From a virus: a stretch of 22,292 nucleotides of DNA. This document shows, one piece after another, positions 13,794 to 22,292 of the stretch (the first letter of the stretch is position 1; each line of letters starts with the position of its first letter). The stretch covers positions 1-22,292 of IMG/VR virus record IMGVR_UViG_3300014492_000034; one strand, given 5' to 3'. Made by a program: the position numbers and the translations under genes. The notes beneath the pieces were generated by a model. That model did no database searches. It saw only the letters and a list, made by a program, of their open reading frames with translations, and had not been told where the DNA came from.

Positions 13794-14818
13794 CCCTTTG
13801 CGCGTCGACCCGCGCGCTTGGACTTCGCCGGCTTCTGCGACTCTAAGATCGCCGCGTCCATTTGATCGCGACGGCTCGGGGGCTTCGCTGGCTCGTCGGA
13901 TTTAATCAGGGGAGTAGGAGTCATAACCGGGGGCATCGCACCCACGCGCGGTGCTCCTCTATTCGGCTGTCGCTTGTCCTTACCCAAGGCACCCGGGTCA
14001 GCGGTCGCCGCGACGCCGATGCTGGCCAAATCAGCCAGGGATCCGCCGAAGATGTAGCTGCCTACGTGCTGCAGGTGCATCCACGGACAGAACCAGCAGT
14101 GCATGCCGGCCTGCTGCGCCTTCTGGCTGAACCAGTAGTCTTCGCTGAGGTACCTCTTGGAGACGGGATCTATCTCCGCCTGAAAGAACTGCATTATTTC
14201 TCGCGACCCATCGAAGTGTTCAGTACGCACGTGATCGGGCTTGTACATGTACTGGGGATAGCTATTTGCAAACGTTTGCATAGCTTCTTTATGCACCATC
14301 ATGAATCCGGTCCCGATCTCCAGGACCTCAACGGGTTCGTTGAGGGGGATCTGCGCCTGCCCGCTCTTGGGATTGAACACGTAGTCCCCGACGAACTTCT
14401 CGAGGACAGTAGCGTCCTGGTCCGCCACGCCCTTGTCCACCGCGTGCTTGATCTTCTCCCACGAGATGCACTTCTTGGGGTACGGCCCGCCGATGATGTG
14501 GTACTTGGGGTCCTGAACCTGAAGAGCCATGAGCGCGAGGACGTCCTGCGGGGAGAATCCGATGTCGGAGTCGATAAAGCACAAATGTCCACATTCAGAC
14601 CGCATAAATTCATCGCAGCAATAATTTCTGGCTCTTGTAATGAGACTCTCATTGAACAAAAAATACAGCTGCATCTGTATCCCATATTGGTTACAGAGCG
14701 AAGTAAGGTCCGAAATGCTCTTACAAAACATTCCCGAACAAGCGCCCCCAAACATCGGCGTAGCCACAAAAAGTTTCCGCTCGCGCAGACGTTCAATTGG
14801 GCAATTTATCTCCACCAT
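13790..14818 (-). CDS. GT-A fold glycosyltransferase
   Basis: 342 residues. The first 250 form a GT-A type (GT2-like) domain: a KLFVATPMFGG strand, an ITRARNYCCDEF segment, the metal-binding DSD motif at residues 83-85 inside CFIDSDIGFSP, a GGPYPKK block and a LEIGTGFMMVHKEA acceptor-site block. The C-terminal 90 residues are Pro-, Lys- and Arg-rich and look disordered. Such enzymes occur in many T4-like phages; together with agt and gp42 it could add a further sugar to hydroxymethylcytosine, or instead glycosylate a virion protein. Its 5' end is AT-rich and overlaps the GIY-YIG endonuclease gene by 26 bases. Confidence 0.8.
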   Translation of the reverse strand: MVEINCPIERLRERKLFVATPMFGGACSGMFCKSISDLTSLCNQYGIQMQLYFLFNESLITRARNYCCDEFMRSECGHLCFIDSDIGFSPQDVLALMALQVQDPKYHIIGGPYPKKCISWEKIKHAVDKGVADQDATVLEKFVGDYVFNPKSGQAQIPLNEPVEVLEIGTGFMMVHKEAMQTFANSYPQYMYKPDHVRTEHFDGSREIMQFFQAEIDPVSKRYLSEDYWFSQKAQQAGMHCWFCPWMHLQHVGSYIFGGSLADLASIGVAATADPGALGKDKRQPNRGAPRVGAMPPVMTPTPLIKSDEPAKPPSRRDQMDAAILESQKPAKSKRAGRRAKG

Positions 14819-15470
14819 TTTTTATCCTTTCAAAATATCTTTTCCGCCCAAGACCAATGTTAGCCCTTGTCTCAGGGGAACGCTTCTGTCCGCGATTCTT
14901 TTTCGCGGCTTTCCTGATTCTCTCAGGATTCCTTCCTGTCTCAGCAGCCCATGGACGTGGAATGCCCTTGGTTTTTGCCGACACTTTCTTACCAGTCTCT
15001 GCTAAGATACGCTTACCATCTTCACTCTGGCAAAACGCCTTCTGTGAGTCGCTCTTGCGCTTTCGAGACTCATCGGACCACTTCTTTCCCTTAGCCTGAG
15101 GCTCATTGTTCTCTAGCCACTCACGCTGCTTCCTGCTGAGATGTGCCTTTACTTCATCAGTGTGCGGGAAGTCATGAACCGGACACTTTCCTTCATTCCA
15201 ATTCAGCCACCTTGGGTTGTGTCGTACCCGCAGCCGTCGCAGCACCCGATGCTCCCACGAACGTGCACTATCCGCAGCCTCAAACGTCCGCCTAACCTCT
15301 CGAATGTCTGGAGGACCATATTGCCTTATGTATGCAGCGACCTCCTCAGACGACGTAAAGTACGTCACCCATAAGTCGTCGGGACTACATCCAACAGCGT
15401 ACCGCACGCCGTAGTACCAACGATCAAGCGCGCTCCAGCCCACGAGGTACGTGTAGGGTAGGTAGTTCAT
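14793..15470 (-). CDS. GIY-YIG homing endonuclease
   Basis: 225 residues. The N-terminal 90 are a GIY-YIG nuclease of the phage type: YLVGW (8-12) and YYGVRY (19-24) form the divergent GIY...YIG core, VRRTF carries the conserved Arg, Glu73 in SWEHRVL is the likely catalytic Glu and WLN (88-90) closes the domain. The Lys/Arg-rich rest has NUMOD3-like repeats (KKWSDESRKRKSDSQK; GQKRSPETRANIG) that bind DNA. The 3' half of the gene is much more AT-rich than the phage, a sign of transfer. ATG 15470 abuts the lysozyme stop. It is a free-standing mobile gene, not inside an intron as far as can be seen. Confidence 0.85.
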   Translation of the reverse strand: MNYLPYTYLVGWSALDRWYYGVRYAVGCSPDDLWVTYFTSSEEVAAYIRQYGPPDIREVRRTFEAADSARSWEHRVLRRLRVRHNPRWLNWNEGKCPVHDFPHTDEVKAHLSRKQREWLENNEPQAKGKKWSDESRKRKSDSQKAFCQSEDGKRILAETGKKVSAKTKGIPRPWAAETGRNPERIRKAAKKNRGQKRSPETRANIGLGRKRYFERIKNGGDKLPN

Positions 15471-16003
15471 CAGTGCTTGTGGCCGTGCGGGTGCTTGTGA
15501 GCCTCGTGCGGTTGGGTCCAGCGCATGCTCGGCTTCCTGCTGAGGTACTCGTACCACTGCTCCGACCGCAGCGCCCGCTTCGCTGCTTGTCCCGGTGCTC
15601 CGGCGCGCTCGTAGTACTGGCAGGCTACCGAACCTGCCTCCGACGCTGTCGTACATGCTTGGACTTTAATCAAAGCTCTTTCTTCAAGCAATACGTTGGT
15701 AAGCTCCCACCACACCGCTTTATGCTGGTCCGCGATGCTCGGGAGAGTGGTTAGGTCGACGCCGGTCGCGTCCTTGATGACGGCGGCGCGGTCGGTGTGT
15801 ATCTGGTACAGTCCCCACGCCGTGTAGTCGTCCCCCTTCTTGTCCCCGAACGCCGTGGGATTCAAGCTGCTCTCGGCGTCCGCTTGCGCCAGCATGCCGC
15901 AGGCCTGCTCAGGCGTGAGCTTCGCGACCTGCGTCCAAAAGTCGTATATCTCAACGGCGTTCGCGTAGTACTGGCTGTTGGACAGACCGGTTCTGTATCC
16001 CAT
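15470..16003 (-). CDS. Phage tail lysozyme-type muramidase
   Basis: 177 residues. The first 140 have the phage tail lysozyme pattern: GMLAQADAESSLNP with probable catalytic Glu44, then AWGLYQIHTDR, corresponding to the GlfQW...R block of the family. It would hydrolyse or lyse peptidoglycan glycan strands. The end is His-rich (HEAHKHPHGHKH), an unusual natural metal-binding tail. No signal peptide. Its place among DNA-modification genes rather than tail genes is odd. ATG 16003 follows AAAGGAGATCGACTAAC. Confidence 0.7.
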   Translation of the reverse strand: MGYRTGLSNSQYYANAVEIYDFWTQVAKLTPEQACGMLAQADAESSLNPTAFGDKKGDDYTAWGLYQIHTDRAAVIKDATGVDLTTLPSIADQHKAVWWELTNVLLEERALIKVQACTTASEAGSVACQYYERAGAPGQAAKRALRSEQWYEYLSRKPSMRWTQPHEAHKHPHGHKH

Positions 16004-16018
16004 GTTAGTCGATCTCCT

Positions 16019-17167
16019 TTATGGACAGCACGCGGCGCCGTCAGCTTGCATCCACGGCCGTCCGGTCACGATGTTGAGGGCGCGGTTGGGCAGGTACACC
16101 ATGTCCTTGACGGGCCTTCCGTGTATCTCCTTCTCGACGTCGACCTCGCACATGGCGCGTCGCTTGATCTCGAAGTCGTTGAGGTCGCGGGTACCGTACA
16201 GCTCGCAGACGCGCTTGCCGTCCACCTGAACAACGATCTTTCCAGCTTCCACTTCGGGGGGCCTTACCCACGTGGGATCGTCGTCCTCGCCAATCCGCGG
16301 AGTGCCGTCGTCGCTCATGCGCGTGGTGCCGCGTAGCTTCAGGAGCTCGGTGCCCCCCACTGCTGCATGCCGCGGGCTCAGGGGCGGACCAAACCACGTC
16401 TTGTCTCCCTGTGTATCAAGGACCCTCACGGTCTCCTGCACCGCCGACTGCGACTGCAGCTTCTTGGTCTCCTCTTTGTCCCTCGCGATCGCTTCGTCAA
16501 CCTCTCGCACCCAGCGACCCGGCACGCTTTCGAGGACCTCTTCATCCTCGCCCATAGTCTTAAGAGACGCCAGCTCATTGGACCCTTCAGTAAACGTATT
16601 GGAAGCAGCGATCGCAGCGTCCAGCAGCTGCTGCTGCACCGCGTCGATGATGGGGCTCGAGAGGGTGGAACCCTGTTCCTTGTCGTGGACGTACAGCGCC
16701 AGCAGCGCGTAATGAGCCGTCTTCACCAGGTCGTCGCGGTTGTACCCACCCTTCTTGCCGTAGCGCGACGCGTACTTCTGAACGTTGCCGACGGTGAACC
16801 CCCGTCCGTTGCCGGAGGAGAATATAACGTCCAAGGACTGCACGTTGTCCTCGCCGACGTAGTGGCCGCGGTACGTGTCGTCGATGTACTTCTGCAGCTC
16901 GCGGACGAGCTCGTCCTCGCGGTACTTGTAGTTGGTGACGACGTCGCACATGTTGTTGCCAAGGTCGACGACCGTGAAGGGCTTGGACATGTCGCGCTGC
17001 GGGACAGACTTTGCCTGGTCCGCGGCGAAGTGTCGTGCGGGAAGGTCGTTGTGGTACACGTTGTAGGGCGCGGCGGTGTTCGCATCAGCTTTTCCGCACA
17101 TACCCGCGCTCGGCACCGCAAAGTTGGTGTTCTTGTGTTCCTTGTTCTTATCCCATAGAACGCTCAT
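16019..17167 (-). CDS. DUF3310-like domain protein
   Basis: 382 residues. Residues about 102-160 match the DUF3310 (SaV-like) pattern found in many phages: HYVGEDNVQSLDVI, GFTVGNVQKYASRYGKKGG and DDLVKTAHYALLAL. In phages it is often fused to nucleotide-related domains, but its biochemical role is unknown. The N-terminal 100 residues are polar; the C-terminal 150 contain a Trp/Pro-rich segment and a strand-rich part (KIVVQVDGKRVCELYGTRD) that might be a separate domain, ending in Cys-Cys-Pro. ATG 17167 overlaps the methyltransferase stop (ATGA). It is likely co-expressed with it. Confidence 0.6.
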   Translation of the reverse strand: MSVLWDKNKEHKNTNFAVPSAGMCGKADANTAAPYNVYHNDLPARHFAADQAKSVPQRDMSKPFTVVDLGNNMCDVVTNYKYREDELVRELQKYIDDTYRGHYVGEDNVQSLDVIFSSGNGRGFTVGNVQKYASRYGKKGGYNRDDLVKTAHYALLALYVHDKEQGSTLSSPIIDAVQQQLLDAAIAASNTFTEGSNELASLKTMGEDEEVLESVPGRWVREVDEAIARDKEETKKLQSQSAVQETVRVLDTQGDKTWFGPPLSPRHAAVGGTELLKLRGTTRMSDDGTPRIGEDDDPTWVRPPEVEAGKIVVQVDGKRVCELYGTRDLNDFEIKRRAMCEVDVEKEIHGRPVKDMVYLPNRALNIVTGRPWMQADGAACCP

Positions 17168-18390
17168 GACACAAACTCCTCCAGTGTAGCCGGCTCGTCC
17201 TCGTACCTAACGGTCTTCGAGGCGTTGAACTGATAGACGTAGGGAGCGCTCGTGGTCTCCCTCCTCCCCTCCAGGTAGGCTAGGACCTCGGAGGACATGT
17301 CCGCGGCGGTTTGCACCGGCACGTTTTGGCATATGTGGTTGGACGACTTCTCGGGATCCAGCAGCTCGAAGTCGTCCGGCATGCCCATGATGGTCATCGC
17401 CTCGCGAAAAGTTATGTAGCGGTCCTCCGTCGGGTGCGCCAGCATATGGGGATAGTGCCCGACAAAGGCGCCGATGTGGTCGCGGGGGATGCAGGTGTTG
17501 CGCTTCATGATGCCGAGGCCCGCAGCGAGCTTGGCGCCGCGCCTCTCCGCCTTATCCGCCTCTCGGTCCAGTCCCTGGGCACGCATCCACCGGGCGATGT
17601 CGTCCTCGGTGTGTCCCTGGTTCTGGATGTAGGACAGGACGTCCATCTGTTTCAGGTTGGTGACGATGGGTTGGGACTGACTGAACTCCCGGTGGGTCAT
17701 CCCCGGGTGTATGACTTCGAGGAGGTAACGGTAGATCGGGTCGTCCCTCGACGGGGTCTTGGGATTGATCGGTTCCATCTGGAAGTTGGAGGTCACCCCC
17801 GTGATGAGGTCCTCGATCTTCTGATAGGGTCTGTCGTACCAGTCCAGGATCGGCGTACGGTTACCGCGCCAGAAGAAGTAGAAGGACCTCTCGCGTACCT
17901 GGGGGAGTCCGTGGAGGAGTGTCTTCGTCCGGTACACGGTCATGGTGTACCCGTTGTCCACACCGATACGCCTCATGTTCTCGCGTATGTTCTTGCCGAT
18001 CTTGCCAGCGAACCCCGGAGCGTTCTCGCCCCAATAGACGTCGGGTCTCAGGGTACCCATGACGTACTCCGCTACCAGGGGCAGCCACACGTTGTTGGGG
18101 TTGTCGTCCCCGTAGCCGTGCGATATGGTGGATAGACCGGCACAGGGACAGGTGGAGTTCACCGCGTCGTACGTACCGACGCGGACTCCCGAGGGAGGGA
18201 CGCCTCCCTTGTCCAGAACGTAGTAAGGGACGTCCACGCCGCGCTGGTCGTACCAGTGGAGCAGGTGCTTCTCGTTGGGGGCGAAGGCCTCGTAGGAGAT
18301 GAGGGCGTCGGGAGGGGTCCCGAAGGCACGCTCGGCGCCCATGGCCATACCGCCGATGAGGGGGACTATGGAGGCGTGTCTCACTGTCAT
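17164..18390 (-). CDS. DNA C5-cytosine methyltransferase (Dcm/Dnmt family)
   Basis: 408 residues with the ordered motifs of C5-cytosine methyltransferases. Motif I: LIGGMAMGAERAFG (11-24); motif IV: CPCAGLS with catalytic Cys83; motif VI: GENAPG with Glu122; motif VIII: QVRER (164-168); motif IX: FREAMTIMGMPDDF (328-341); motif X: QNVPVQTAADM (355-365). The variable target-recognition region lies at about 180-320. The catalytic residues are present, so it is probably active; the DNA target is unknown. ATG 18390 overlaps the stop of an HNH-AP2 endonuclease. Possible jobs: protecting unmodified C in viral DNA, or making 5mC as a base for further modification. Confidence 0.88.
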   Translation of the reverse strand: MTVRHASIVPLIGGMAMGAERAFGTPPDALISYEAFAPNEKHLLHWYDQRGVDVPYYVLDKGGVPPSGVRVGTYDAVNSTCPCAGLSTISHGYGDDNPNNVWLPLVAEYVMGTLRPDVYWGENAPGFAGKIGKNIRENMRRIGVDNGYTMTVYRTKTLLHGLPQVRERSFYFFWRGNRTPILDWYDRPYQKIEDLITGVTSNFQMEPINPKTPSRDDPIYRYLLEVIHPGMTHREFSQSQPIVTNLKQMDVLSYIQNQGHTEDDIARWMRAQGLDREADKAERRGAKLAAGLGIMKRNTCIPRDHIGAFVGHYPHMLAHPTEDRYITFREAMTIMGMPDDFELLDPEKSSNHICQNVPVQTAADMSSEVLAYLEGRRETTSAPYVYQFNASKTVRYEDEPATLEEFVS

Positions 18391-18863
18391 GAATGTGCAA
18401 ACTCCCCATGATATACACGGGCCGCGTTATTGTAAGCGGCTGCCGCTTCTTCAGCGCTATCAAATGTACCTAAATGTATGCGCTGGTTGTCAAAAGCTAT
18501 CGAAGCACTGTGTCTGTTGCCGTCACTACACACTCCTTTGTAGCCGGATGTATTATTTCGAAGCTTGCCACGGTGTTGTTGGTTCTGTCCTTGCGTACAT
18601 GTACGTATCTCGTTCCAACGATTGTCACATGTATCAAAATGTTTGTGATCGACTTGGGGAGGCCACTCACCTGTCATATAAAAAACAGCGAGTCGATGCG
18701 CTAGATATTGCTTTCCGTCTATGTGAACGTAAAAATAGCCATTCGACCCACGATGCCCAACAGGTTTTCCCACAAGCTTCGTGTGATGTGACTGAAGAAG
18801 TGTCCAATTTCCCGTCTCGGGATCGTAGCTAACTTTTTCTTTCAGCCGTTCAATCGTTAGCAT
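18387..18863 (-). CDS. HNH-AP2 homing endonuclease
   Basis: 158 residues. The HNH_3 nuclease core is AHRLAVFYMTGEWPPQVDHKHFDTCDNRWNEIR (in pieces at about residues 55-87; His56, Asp72-His73 and Asn81 or Asn84 are the likely active-site residues). An AP2-type DNA-binding domain follows at 105-155 (TSGYKGV, then RIHLGTFDSAEEAAAAYNNAA). This is a common free-standing phage homing endonuclease. Its sequence is more AT-rich than its neighbours, which points to recent entry. It overlaps both neighbours by a few bases, yet leaves agt and the methyltransferase intact. Confidence 0.93.
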   Translation of the reverse strand: MLTIERLKEKVSYDPETGNWTLLQSHHTKLVGKPVGHRGSNGYFYVHIDGKQYLAHRLAVFYMTGEWPPQVDHKHFDTCDNRWNEIRTCTQGQNQQHRGKLRNNTSGYKGVCSDGNRHSASIAFDNQRIHLGTFDSAEEAAAAYNNAARVYHGEFAHS

Positions 18864-20083
18864 AATTCCTCAATCATTTTCATCGTATCAGCAAAGACGT
18901 AGGAAGAATCCTGATGGAGCTTATAAAAAGCAAAAGCTTTTTCACGCATCTCATCGCGCAGTACATCGTCGGACGCAATTCTATTTATCTCCGCCCACGT
19001 GCCTGCCATATCGTCATCATCAAACCATATAGTACCATGGTCGCGACACTTTGTCAATGGCACGTCATAAATTCTGTGACGACAAATATCACCAAACTTT
19101 TTCCTAAAAACTGGCACAACACCTACCGACGCTATTTCTGCATGTGTGTACTCTATGGACTTCTCGACGTATTTGGGGTTCAGGAGGGACAGCTGGTACC
19201 CGAAGCCGGCGCGAGACATCCTCTTCATCATGGTGTCGTTCTCGTACTGGGAGAAGACGACGACGGGTCCTCCCCGGTGGGCGTCCACGTCGACATCGTG
19301 GTACGGCAGGGACGAGTTGCAGTGGTTGACGAACGGGGCATACATCTTAAAGTCCAGAAAAGCGGGAGACTTGTCGATCCCCTCCATCATGGAGACGCAG
19401 CGCGGGTCCTTCCGGATGAAATTCTCATGGAAGGTCATGAACTCGCGATATCCCTTCCATTGGACGGTGCGGCCCACCCACTTGTGGCTGCGCGGGTCCG
19501 TCTCCTCGATGGGCTTCCAGTACTTTGCTCGGGCAGCGTCGAAGTCGAACGCCGGCTGGAACGCAGCGACCGCCTTCGAGCTGCGGTCCTCCCCCGCGAG
19601 GATCGCCGAGACGTCTCCCTCCCAGTCGTCCAGCATCGCGCAGAAGTCGTTGCTCCGTGAGTGGACGAAGATGAGGTTGGCCCGCGCCATCGCTTCGTCC
19701 ATGCAGCGGTTGCGCAGGATGGACAGCTTGTTGTGATCGTGAACGTACATCACAACTGGCGGCTTGATAGCCGCGAGCAGTCCCGCGAAGTTCTCCACCT
19801 CCGCGACGGAGGCGTCCTTGGGAGGCAGGGAGTTCACGACGACGCAGTCGGAGAGGTTGCACGCGTCCAGCACCTCCTGCATCTCCTGAGGGCGCGAGAA
19901 GAAGTGGAGGCTGAGGCCGTCGATGTCGTGGGAGTACTTGCGGGGGTAGTTCTTCTCCTTGGACGCAAGGACGCGGCAGCGGTAGCCCGCTGCGTTCAGC
20001 CACCGGGAGAACTCAGCGGTGTGCTTGCTTACACCACAACCTTCCACACCACGACCTAAAATTATTGCTACATTCTTTATCAT
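18857..20083 (-). CDS. agt: DNA alpha-glucosyltransferase, T4 Agt-like
   Basis: 408 residues, very similar in order of motifs to T4 alpha-glucosyltransferase (400 residues as I recall). Shared blocks: RGVEGCGVSK (11-20), SHDIDGLS (51-58), HDHNKLS (115-121), WVGRTVQWKGY (202-212), MEGIDKSPAF (233-242), SGFGYQL-type AGFGYQL (292-298), EYTHAEI (311-317), GTIWFDDDDM near residue 349-358 and HQDSSY before the end. T4 Agt is a GT-B enzyme that moves glucose from UDP-glucose to 5-hydroxymethylcytosine in DNA. This fits gp42 six genes upstream. ATG 20083 overlaps the preceding stop (ATGA). The 3' end of the gene is AT-rich, where an HNH gene follows. Confidence 0.93.
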   Translation of the reverse strand: MIKNVAIILGRGVEGCGVSKHTAEFSRWLNAAGYRCRVLASKEKNYPRKYSHDIDGLSLHFFSRPQEMQEVLDACNLSDCVVVNSLPPKDASVAEVENFAGLLAAIKPPVVMYVHDHNKLSILRNRCMDEAMARANLIFVHSRSNDFCAMLDDWEGDVSAILAGEDRSSKAVAAFQPAFDFDAARAKYWKPIEETDPRSHKWVGRTVQWKGYREFMTFHENFIRKDPRCVSMMEGIDKSPAFLDFKMYAPFVNHCNSSLPYHDVDVDAHRGGPVVVFSQYENDTMMKRMSRAGFGYQLSLLNPKYVEKSIEYTHAEIASVGVVPVFRKKFGDICRHRIYDVPLTKCRDHGTIWFDDDDMAGTWAEINRIASDDVLRDEMREKAFAFYKLHQDSSYVFADTMKMIEELC

Positions 20084-20274
20084 TGAGAACCACGCTTCTT
20101 ATAGGGCCCTCGTGGTCCGCGCTTATCGCAGCACCTGCCACGTCTAAATCCTTCAGGAGGTACATCATTGAACGCAACGCGTACATCCGCACTACCATTG
20201 GTGTACCAATAGAAGTCGCACTCGCCCTTCTCAAAGCGATCAAGGTCGCGCTCGGAAAGCGCCGCCGTCTTGAT
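20080..20274 (-). CDS. Hypothetical 64-residue protein without a canonical start codon
   Basis: The frame ending at TGA 20082-20080 overlaps agt's ATG exactly as other coupled genes do, and its product looks real: a helical start, CDFYWYTNGSADVRVAFNDVP, then a Cys/Arg-rich end (FRRGRCCDKRGPRGPYKKRG). But between the in-frame stop upstream and its end there is no ATG, GTG, TTG or CTG. The best start is ATC 20274-20272, ten bases after AGGAG, giving IKTAALSERD where a Met would be expected. Other options: +1 frameshifting from the dCMP deaminase frame (they overlap by 35 bases), or a mutated ATG. No family recognised. Confidence 0.5.
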   Translation of the reverse strand: MKTAALSERDLDRFEKGECDFYWYTNGSADVRVAFNDVPPEGFRRGRCCDKRGPRGPYKKRGSQ

Positions 20275-20833
20275 AGAAGTACCGCTCCTGTGTGTCGTGT
20301 CCGGTGCACAGGTGTTCCGGCAGCGGCGCGCCGGTGTTAGCCTCGCGGTACAGCGGGTGCTGGGTATCGTTCATCTCCACGTTGTCGAAGTTGTACATCA
20401 CCCACTCAATGCCGACCTCCCGGAACATGGCCTGGGTGTACTCAACGAACGACTCGAGCCACTTGTCGGAGATGGGAAACCGCGACCTCATGACGAGCCG
20501 ACCCACGCCGGCCTGGACGAGGGACTTCGCGCAGTCGGCGCACACCGGCACGCCATGGACGTACATCGTGGCGCCGTCTAGGGAGACTCCGTTGTACGCT
20601 GCGCTGAGGACGCAGTTCATCTCCGCGTGCACCGTCATGGCGTACTTTGACTCGCGGTGCATCAGCCTCTCCTCGGTGTCCTTGACTCCCCGGGGAAATC
20701 CGTTGTACCCCGTCGAGAGTATCTGGCGCCGACCGTTAACGGCGACCGCACCCACACCGATCGAGGGGTCCTTCGACCACGTCGCGATCTGAGCTGCGAT
20801 ACCGAGGAAGCGTTCGTCCCACTTCTCAAGCAT
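20240..20833 (-). CDS. cd: dCMP deaminase
   Basis: 197 residues, a zinc-dependent deoxycytidylate deaminase. Visible are STGYNGFPRG (40-49, nucleotide site), HAEMN with His69 and Glu71, and CADC with Cys98 and Cys101 as zinc ligands (here preceded by PV rather than the usual P). It converts dCMP to dUMP, feeding thymidylate synthesis and controlling the C/T pool, which matters when gp42 also draws on dCMP. The C-terminal 50 residues (from about 150) are an extension I do not recognise. ATG 20833 overlaps the previous stop by a few bases. Confidence 0.88.
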   Translation of the reverse strand: MLEKWDERFLGIAAQIATWSKDPSIGVGAVAVNGRRQILSTGYNGFPRGVKDTEERLMHRESKYAMTVHAEMNCVLSAAYNGVSLDGATMYVHGVPVCADCAKSLVQAGVGRLVMRSRFPISDKWLESFVEYTQAMFREVGIEWVMYNFDNVEMNDTQHPLYREANTGAPLPEHLCTGHDTQERYFYQDGGAFRARP

Positions 20834-21017
20834 TGAGATCCTCCAGCACCTTCTTCGCGGCCTCGAGCTCCTCGACGTAGCTGGGACCGGTGTAGGGCGC
20901 GCCGTGAATAAATGCCGATTCCCACACTGCTAGGTACTGGGGATCATTTTCTATGAGGTCCAGCTTCTCCACCAGGTCCCTCAGCGCCTTCTCAATCGGC
21001 CAGCAGCAGTCGCTCAC
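20826..21017 (-). CDS. Hypothetical small acidic protein
   Basis: 63 residues from GTG 21017 (GTGA overlap with the preceding stop). Helical at both ends (PIEKALRDLVEKLDLI; YVEELEAAKKVLEDL) with an aromatic turn between (WESAFIHGAPYTGPS). No family recognised; it is probably part of the nucleotide-metabolism transcript only by position. Confidence 0.7.
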   Translation of the reverse strand: MSDCCWPIEKALRDLVEKLDLIENDPQYLAVWESAFIHGAPYTGPSYVEELEAAKKVLEDLNA

Positions 21018-21331
21018 GCTGCGTCTCCCTGCGGTACGATGACGTCCGGCCCGCACTCGTCGGGATCGAGGACCGTGATGAACCCCCTCTTCCTTTCCGG
21101 TTCAATGCCTCGCAGGTAGTCGTTGTCCTCGTCGAAGACGCGGAGGAACTCCCCGTCGTCGATCACCCGGTGCGACACGCTCATCTCCCCAAGGTGCAGC
21201 TGCGAGACCTCCGTCGCTTCATCCATTGTCACAGTATCCAGAGCCCACTCAGGGTCGCCGGCGTCGCCGACGTCCACGACGTACCTTATCCGGTGTTGGC
21301 TGATCGTCTCGACGAGTACCAACTTGCTCAT
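21014..21331 (-). CDS. Hypothetical protein, T4-like phage type
   Basis: 105 residues from ATG 21331, with AGAGGGCGG upstream. Strand-rich start (LVLVETISQHRIRYVVDV), an acidic middle with SQLHLGEMSVSHRV, then FLRVFDEDNDYLRG. A similar ISQ-RxRYVV...DEDNDYL pattern is, to my recollection, found in small uncharacterised proteins of marine T4-like phages. Function unknown. Its 5' part overlaps the next upstream ORF by 83 bases in another frame. Confidence 0.7.
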   Translation of the reverse strand: MSKLVLVETISQHRIRYVVDVGDAGDPEWALDTVTMDEATEVSQLHLGEMSVSHRVIDDGEFLRVFDEDNDYLRGIEPERKRGFITVLDPDECGPDVIVPQGDAA

Positions 21332-21443
21332 GTTCCGCCCTCTCGCGCTCTATCATCCTGTATATCCACTGTATGTTGGGGTCCCGTTGAACGGAGGCCA
21401 TCAGCTGCGCGGGGAAGTCTCCCCAGTCGATAGACGACTTCAT
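21249..21443 (-). CDS. Hypothetical small basic protein with poly-Arg tail
   Basis: 64 residues from ATG 21443, overlapping the stop of gene 42 (ATGA). The first 40 residues look natural (helix QLMASVQRDPNIQWIYRMIERERAE in pieces); the tail ends in RRGRRRRRRP and is encoded in the region shared with the downstream gene. The coupling supports translation, but the long overlap means the real end could reflect constraint from the other frame. Confidence 0.55.
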   Translation of the reverse strand: MKSSIDWGDFPAQLMASVQRDPNIQWIYRMIERERAEHEQVGTRRDDQPTPDKVRRGRRRRRRP

Positions 21444-22114
21444 TCCTTCACCAGGTGGAAGTGCTTCTCGTATACGTGGAGGCTGCTGGCGTGCCAGTAG
21501 ATGTCGCCCGCCTCGACGACGGCGTCTTGACACGTGTTGAGGTCGCGGATCATGTATCTTTGCATGTACTCAGCCCACGCCCTGTCGTTCTTATAGCCGA
21601 ACACTACGTCATTGGAGCGCATCTGCACCAAGACATGGAGCTTCCCGTCCCTAATGAGATACTGCACCGCGTTGGTGCACATGAAGTCGCCGCGACCCCT
21701 GTCGTTGTACTCGAGCCAGATCCTCGGGCGTGTGTGGATGACCACTGCCCTGCGCGAGTACGGGTTCTTCTTTAGCTCCTCCAACGCGTGGTTGTACTGG
21801 AAGTAGTTATCGCGGTGCCAGTTCACCCAACCGTAGTTGCTGGTGATGAGGCCGTCCTCACCGGCCACGGCCTTCCACACCTCGGGCGCCCCTCCGGGGA
21901 AGTCGTTGACGCTGAGCGATTGGCTTATGTACCAGTCGATCTCGCGCTGGACGTAGTCCCAATTGACGGTGCCGAAGATCGCCGGCTCGTCGGCGACGAA
22001 GGTGGCGCCGACTATTTCCAACATTTTACAGCCCGTCTTATCGACGACGAACTCCTCGATCGCGAGCTTGTGGACGAACTCCTCGCGGACGTCTCGACAG
22101 CACCAGTGCTTCAT
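21440..22114 (-). CDS. 42: dCMP hydroxymethylase, T4 gp42-like
   Basis: 224 residues, close to T4 gp42: FVVDKTGCKMLEIVGATFVADEP (in pieces at 22-44), SNYGWVNW (92-99), GDFMCTNAVQYLIRD with catalytic Cys146, MRSNDVVFGYKNDRAW with Asp177 and SLHVYEKHFHLV (211-222). In T4 the matching residues are, as I recall, Cys148 and Asp179; the Asp replaces the Asn of thymidylate synthase and gives preference for dCMP. The enzyme makes 5-hydroxymethyl-dCMP with methylene-tetrahydrofolate. ATG 22114 overlaps the previous stop (ATGA) and matches the family's start; a longer in-frame extension is rejected. Confidence 0.95.
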   Translation of the reverse strand: MKHWCCRDVREEFVHKLAIEEFVVDKTGCKMLEIVGATFVADEPAIFGTVNWDYVQREIDWYISQSLSVNDFPGGAPEVWKAVAGEDGLITSNYGWVNWHRDNYFQYNHALEELKKNPYSRRAVVIHTRPRIWLEYNDRGRGDFMCTNAVQYLIRDGKLHVLVQMRSNDVVFGYKNDRAWAEYMQRYMIRDLNTCQDAVVEAGDIYWHASSLHVYEKHFHLVKE

Positions 22115-22292
22115 AGGATGCGGCTCCCGTCCTCGCGAACGGGACAACCGAGAACTTCCTTGGCCCCCGCGGCTATCTCCCTGCGACCCACGTCGGTGGC
22201 GGCCTTTGGCCACGCAGCTAGTATGTCTCCCCCGTCCATGGTGGGTTCAGCCGGTCGGTGCTCGTGATATATCACCGCAGCGTCTCGAAGCA
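22111..22292 (-). CDS. C-terminal part of a cut hypothetical protein
   Basis: An open frame enters from the right edge and ends at TGA 22113-22111, overlapping the gp42 start (ATGA). Some 59 residues are visible, with HEHRPAEPTMDGGDIL and AATDVGRREIAAGAKEVLG segments. It is the gene transcribed just before 42. No family is recognised from the fragment. Confidence 0.65.
   Translation of the reverse strand, partial: LRDAAVIYHEHRPAEPTMDGGDILAAWPKAATDVGRREIAAGAKEVLGCPVREDGSRIL

Follow-up and report, generated by a model that had tools for sequence, protein, structure and literature searches.

In phage T4, promoters of downstream genes are located within mobB and other homing endonuclease genes, an arrangement considered to favour the retention of the latter, and one of the T4 endonucleases, I-TevIII, is inactive through a large deletion (PMC2988022). 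In the PLE satellites, the CapR protein is derived from the DNA-binding domains of homing endonuclease genes, or HEGs (PMC10448857). The locus considered here lies in an IMG/VR virus record of 22,292 bases, the whole of which is called the window below. There, a 64-codon frame devoid of standard start codon is found between the genes for a dCMP deaminase and for the DNA alpha-glucosyltransferase AGT; we put at about 0.63 the probability that it is the surviving 3' part of a free-standing homing endonuclease gene which once stood at this place and has since been truncated on its 5' side. Gene decay is a simpler account of the missing start than an exotic mode of translation. The features concerned are the following:

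18387-18863, minus strand: HNH homing endonuclease gene (HNH_3, AP2-like), directly after agt
18857-20083, minus strand: agt (PF11440), with a weak SD of its own and an ATGA overlap with the stop of the putative remnant
20080-20274, minus strand: 64-codon frame without standard start, matching by homology the linker and C-terminal module of homing endonucleases; in the preferred reading, a remnant truncated at its 5' end
20083-20133, minus strand: basic tail, CCDKRGPRGPYKKRGSQ
20134-20208, minus strand: conserved module of 25 residues, WYTNG-x12-P-x-G-F-x2-GR
20240-20833, minus strand: dCMP deaminase gene, the last ~11 codons of which overlap the putative remnant out of frame
20272-20274, minus strand: ATC, candidate start codon, at the frame switch (20275-20274) of the codon-usage scan
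20285-20289, minus strand: AGGAG, SD-like, no better than 10% of random sites

The minus-strand frame is open for 96 codons (20370-20080); as the initial annotation had pointed out, it does not contain a single ATG, GTG, TTG or CTG. The geometry given there was verified as well: the ATC lies ten nucleotides past the AGGAG, the 64-codon part overlaps the deaminase frame by 35 nt, and its TGA (20082-20080) overlaps the ATG of agt (20083) to form an ATGA junction. No ribosome binding site with an initiation codon of its own could be assigned to the frame: there is no standard start, and the SD is an ordinary one, the anti-SD pairing of the AGGAG being within chance (matched by 10% of random minus-strand sites). 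The overall codon score is weak, at a level reached by 30% of non-coding open frames. Over its first 20 codons the frame has a codon usage of phage type and not a foreign one, a point which counts against the remnant reading.

The frame by itself matched no family in Pfam (0 families), PHROGs or NCBIfam, and gave only weak tblastn matches (E 0.3 or worse); several of these were the C-termini of T4-type homing endonucleases, which provided the lead. A DNA pattern was built from the shared motif, W-Y-x-N-G-x12-P-x-G-aromatic-x2-G. With the correct spacing it was found in 81 viral contigs, against 1 for a control pattern whose spacing was shifted by one base. An HMM made from 63 modules, the window being left out, recovered the start-less frame at E 3.4e-10 (34.8 bits, versus 11.6 for the best of 200 shuffled windows). 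These 63 modules had been chosen by a pattern that the window fits as well; the search was hence repeated with 15 modules outside that pattern, the window again left out, and the frame came up at E 7.7e-8 (27.5 bits versus 9.6 for the best of 200 shuffled windows). Because both models recover the frame, including the pattern-independent one, the module, which corresponds to residues 23-47 (WYTNGSADVRVAFNDVPPEGFRRGR), is real and not part of a chance ORF. The earlier impression of a gene-like frame abutting agt is thereby borne out. In the AlphaFold model, residues 21-40 form a beta hairpin with a pLDDT of about 90; searches of the PDB by sequence and by fold gave no significant match to a solved structure. 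MbtH-like hairpin matches were disregarded as weak (E above 5), and two other candidates, L002 and L003, were set aside, having in common with the frame nothing but GPRGPYKKR, which is no evidence of homology.

Judged by sequence matches, the module is otherwise carried mostly by homing endonucleases. The 58 carriers that were scanned matched phrog_314 (27/58), phrog_655 (20/58), NUMOD3 (14/58), SegE_GIY-YIG (10/58), GIY-YIG (9/58) and HNH (8/58). The relatives are about 150-400 residues long, and the module usually lies near their C-terminus, with a GIY-YIG or HNH nuclease and NUMOD3 repeats on its N-terminal side; a NUMOD3-like linker often precedes it and the tails downstream are mostly basic too. 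The 64 residues of the window align without gap to linker, module and basic tail, residue 1 falling on the mid-protein linker. The best pairwise matches, 47% over 36 aa (L069) and 32% over 72 aa (L041), are both with GIY-YIG proteins. As the homology of the frame is with the interior and the C-terminal end of homing endonucleases, there is no reason to expect a start codon where the ATC lies. An ATG at this position, which the initial annotation had proposed to look for in homologues, was found in none of 42 aligned relatives, where the position is mostly inside longer proteins. The DNA upstream of the frame is that of the dCMP deaminase and has no endonuclease similarity: no trace of a nuclease catalytic domain was detected there, the 1.5 kb upstream being without HEG match below E 0.018 (6e-11 for the module region). 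Among relatives not cut by a contig end, only one other start-less module frame was seen (L049); its nuclease part lies upstream in another frame, which makes it a broken endonuclease gene and a direct precedent. More generally, the WYNNG...P-x-G-F..G module recurs in many homing endonucleases (L030-L109); it is widespread among endonucleases, and the Pfam searches assigned no family to it. In some other proteins it lies close to the N-terminus (L088, L109, L037, L100, L102). Elsewhere in the window, a 287-aa frame (14793-15656) has repeats that look NUMOD3-like by eye, for which Pfam gave nothing at E 0.01.

A total of 80 agt loci was fetched with an alignment of AGT proteins. Many of them share the order deaminase - agt - DNA methylase-like gene, the latter being at 17164-18390 (PF00145) in the window. 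The deaminase-agt interval is variable among relatives: in some there is no gene in between (ATGA or -11 overlap), in others the two are separated by a UDG-superfamily-like ORF, by an ORF of 219 aa, or by longer inserts and other genes. UDG-superfamily-like ORFs of ~120-136 aa are found there in many of the loci L122-L133, L147-L149, L156, L158 and L190 and overlap the agt start by 4-8 nt; the one of L127 matches PF03167 at E 1.3e-4, under the Pfam cut-off. What looked like a deaminase-UDG fusion in L168 was dismissed, as a stop separates the two. Sequences resembling mobB are located upstream of agt in L173 and L177. A full endonuclease at the deaminase-agt site was found in no phage of the set, which also counts against the remnant reading. 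The absence of homologues, named initially as what would refute the gene, did not hold for the frame as such, which has homologues; however, the module was not encountered upstream of agt in any other fetched locus, save that of a near-identical contig. The deaminase-agt junction of these agt-bearing phages thus appears to be a variable spot which, as in T4, has held mobile endonuclease genes.

In relatives, the end of the gene preceding agt often coincides with the agt start or lies close to it, in many cases with ATGA, and several of the agt genes have a weak SD, so that coupling to whatever is upstream looks like a habit of agt. Reinitiation requires no more than the last bases of the upstream frame, but its efficiency declines over a distance of tens of nucleotides (PMC10666635). 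Some 157 nt separate the deaminase stop (20240) from agt, which therefore, if coupled at all, would be coupled to the start-less frame. No agt promoter was found within the putative remnant, a further point against the reading; the one consensus match (20089-20061) spans the agt start. agt is GC-rich in its middle and AT-rich at both ends (18860-19175 and 20030-20119; 37-49% GC); these ends adjoin the endonuclease gene and the putative remnant and are possibly co-conversion tracts. At a larger scale, a thymidylate-synthase-like gene, the dCMP deaminase, agt and the C5 DNA-methylase-like gene stand together at 17164-22213, a gene content which suggests that cytosine is modified and glucosylated in this phage, which is unlike T4.

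On the deaminase side, the core of the 197-residue protein ends at about residue 150 and is followed by a tail of about 45 residues (window 20240-20390) for which no homologue was found, the relatives ending before it; where tblastn extended deaminase homologues as far as residue 194, the extension was spurious, as it crosses stop codons. The codon usage of the tail is of the deaminase-frame type, and the likelihood scan places the change from the deaminase frame to the start-less frame at 20275-20274. Such a change suits a deletion joint, and equally a former start codon; the fact that the frame-specific usage begins at the ATC is in this respect another point against the remnant reading. No intron was detected at the site by Rfam. 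Elsewhere in the window, Rfam gave a weak tRNA match at 1003-1081 (30.3 bits versus a gathering score of 29).

Given the homology to a C-terminal module, the lack of start and of nuclease domain, the position and the variability of the interval in relatives, the truncation would have proceeded as follows. A homing endonuclease gene was presumably inserted between deaminase and agt; a deletion, or a recombination, would have taken away its nuclease domain and start codon, joining the deaminase end to the endonuclease linker near 20275. The deaminase frame would now continue into the remnant for ~11 codons, out of register with it, and then stop. The module, without initiation signal of its own, probably gives little or no product; the former endonuclease would have bound DNA through it, as is assumed for other C-terminal endonuclease modules. 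Against this scenario, all the diagnostic residues of the module are intact, which implies either a recent decay or selection acting on the module. The 3' piece has probably been kept as a leader for agt, i.e. as a translation-initiation and coupling segment, in a way comparable to the T4 promoters in endonuclease genes; if the remnant serves anything today, it is probably that. Reading the frame as a remnant takes away a false lead for non-canonical initiation.

Two modes of expression had been proposed by the initial annotation, ATC initiation and a +1 shift from the deaminase frame, and neither gained positive support. The second would yield a deaminase-module fusion, either through programmed frameshifting near the CCT-TGA stop of the deaminase or by way of one mutated base. 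The two frames are indeed +1 related over the 35-nt overlap, the coding signal passes from one to the other without gap, and the 45-residue tail is peculiar to this deaminase. But there is no SD-like stimulator beside the stop, the codon signal switches about 33 nt ahead of it, the module is on none of the deaminases examined, and both available contigs have the same sequence; we hold the fusion to be unlikely. A small functional gene starting at the ATC (or at a recent ATG to ATC change), which would give a low-level, stand-alone module protein from a frame coupled to agt, is quite improbable as well. It would account for the SD context of the ATC, the codon-usage switch, the intact module and the ATGA overlap, and short proteins with the module near the N-terminus are known (L088, L109, L097). 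Against it, the SD is of ordinary strength (10% of random sites), and homologues have no ATG there but the middle of a linker. ATC is moreover a very poor start codon, giving in E. coli a very small fraction of ATG initiation. We are similarly doubtful of a domestication of the module as a DNA-binding protein, of 64 residues or fused to the deaminase, that would be made at low level via the ATC or the +1 shift and determine agt levels by way of coupling.

An assembly or base error masking an intact start or an in-frame gene would have to be present in two records, and is very unlikely. The second one, IMGVR_UViG_3300038559_000097, is 99.98% identical to the window over 6.4 kb, and the sole difference, one indel at 18730, demonstrates that indel errors or polymorphisms do occur; however, the two are identical throughout the region and the site is without homopolymer. 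Since this second IMG/VR contig has the same sequence across the start-less frame, a miscalled base at 20272 is unlikely. The indel is an extra T in the second contig (L001, position 4545), inside the HNH gene at 18387-18863, the reading frame of which it breaks; tblastn gives two pieces there. No relatives at the DNA level were found in phage records. As for a chance open frame, the weak codon score would agree with it, but the HMM matches to the module refute it.

To compare the truncated-endonuclease reading with known systems, the nearest are the free-standing Seg/Mob-type GIY-YIG/HNH HEGs of phages. In Krischvirus G5211, QBO66414.1 has, like the window, a C-terminal WYNNG...P-x-G-F..G module with a basic tail, and its gene is also hard against the next one, ending 5 bp before a UvsW-like gene; in the same phage the motif is present twice within one GIY-YIG-type protein. 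The window differs from these genes in having linker and module only, with neither nuclease domain nor start codon. On this reading I-TevIII is a parallel, coming from a phage homing endonuclease gene that a deletion has inactivated, but it is an intron-encoded HNH protein in nrdB. With CapR the frame would share an endonuclease DNA-binding part set apart from the nuclease; CapR, however, is expressed and acts as a repressor, with a zinc finger. Finally, mobB of T4 is intact, of the HNH type and without WYNNG module, but it lies directly upstream of a-gt, so that in T4 a homing endonuclease gene occupies the position which the frame has next to agt in the window.
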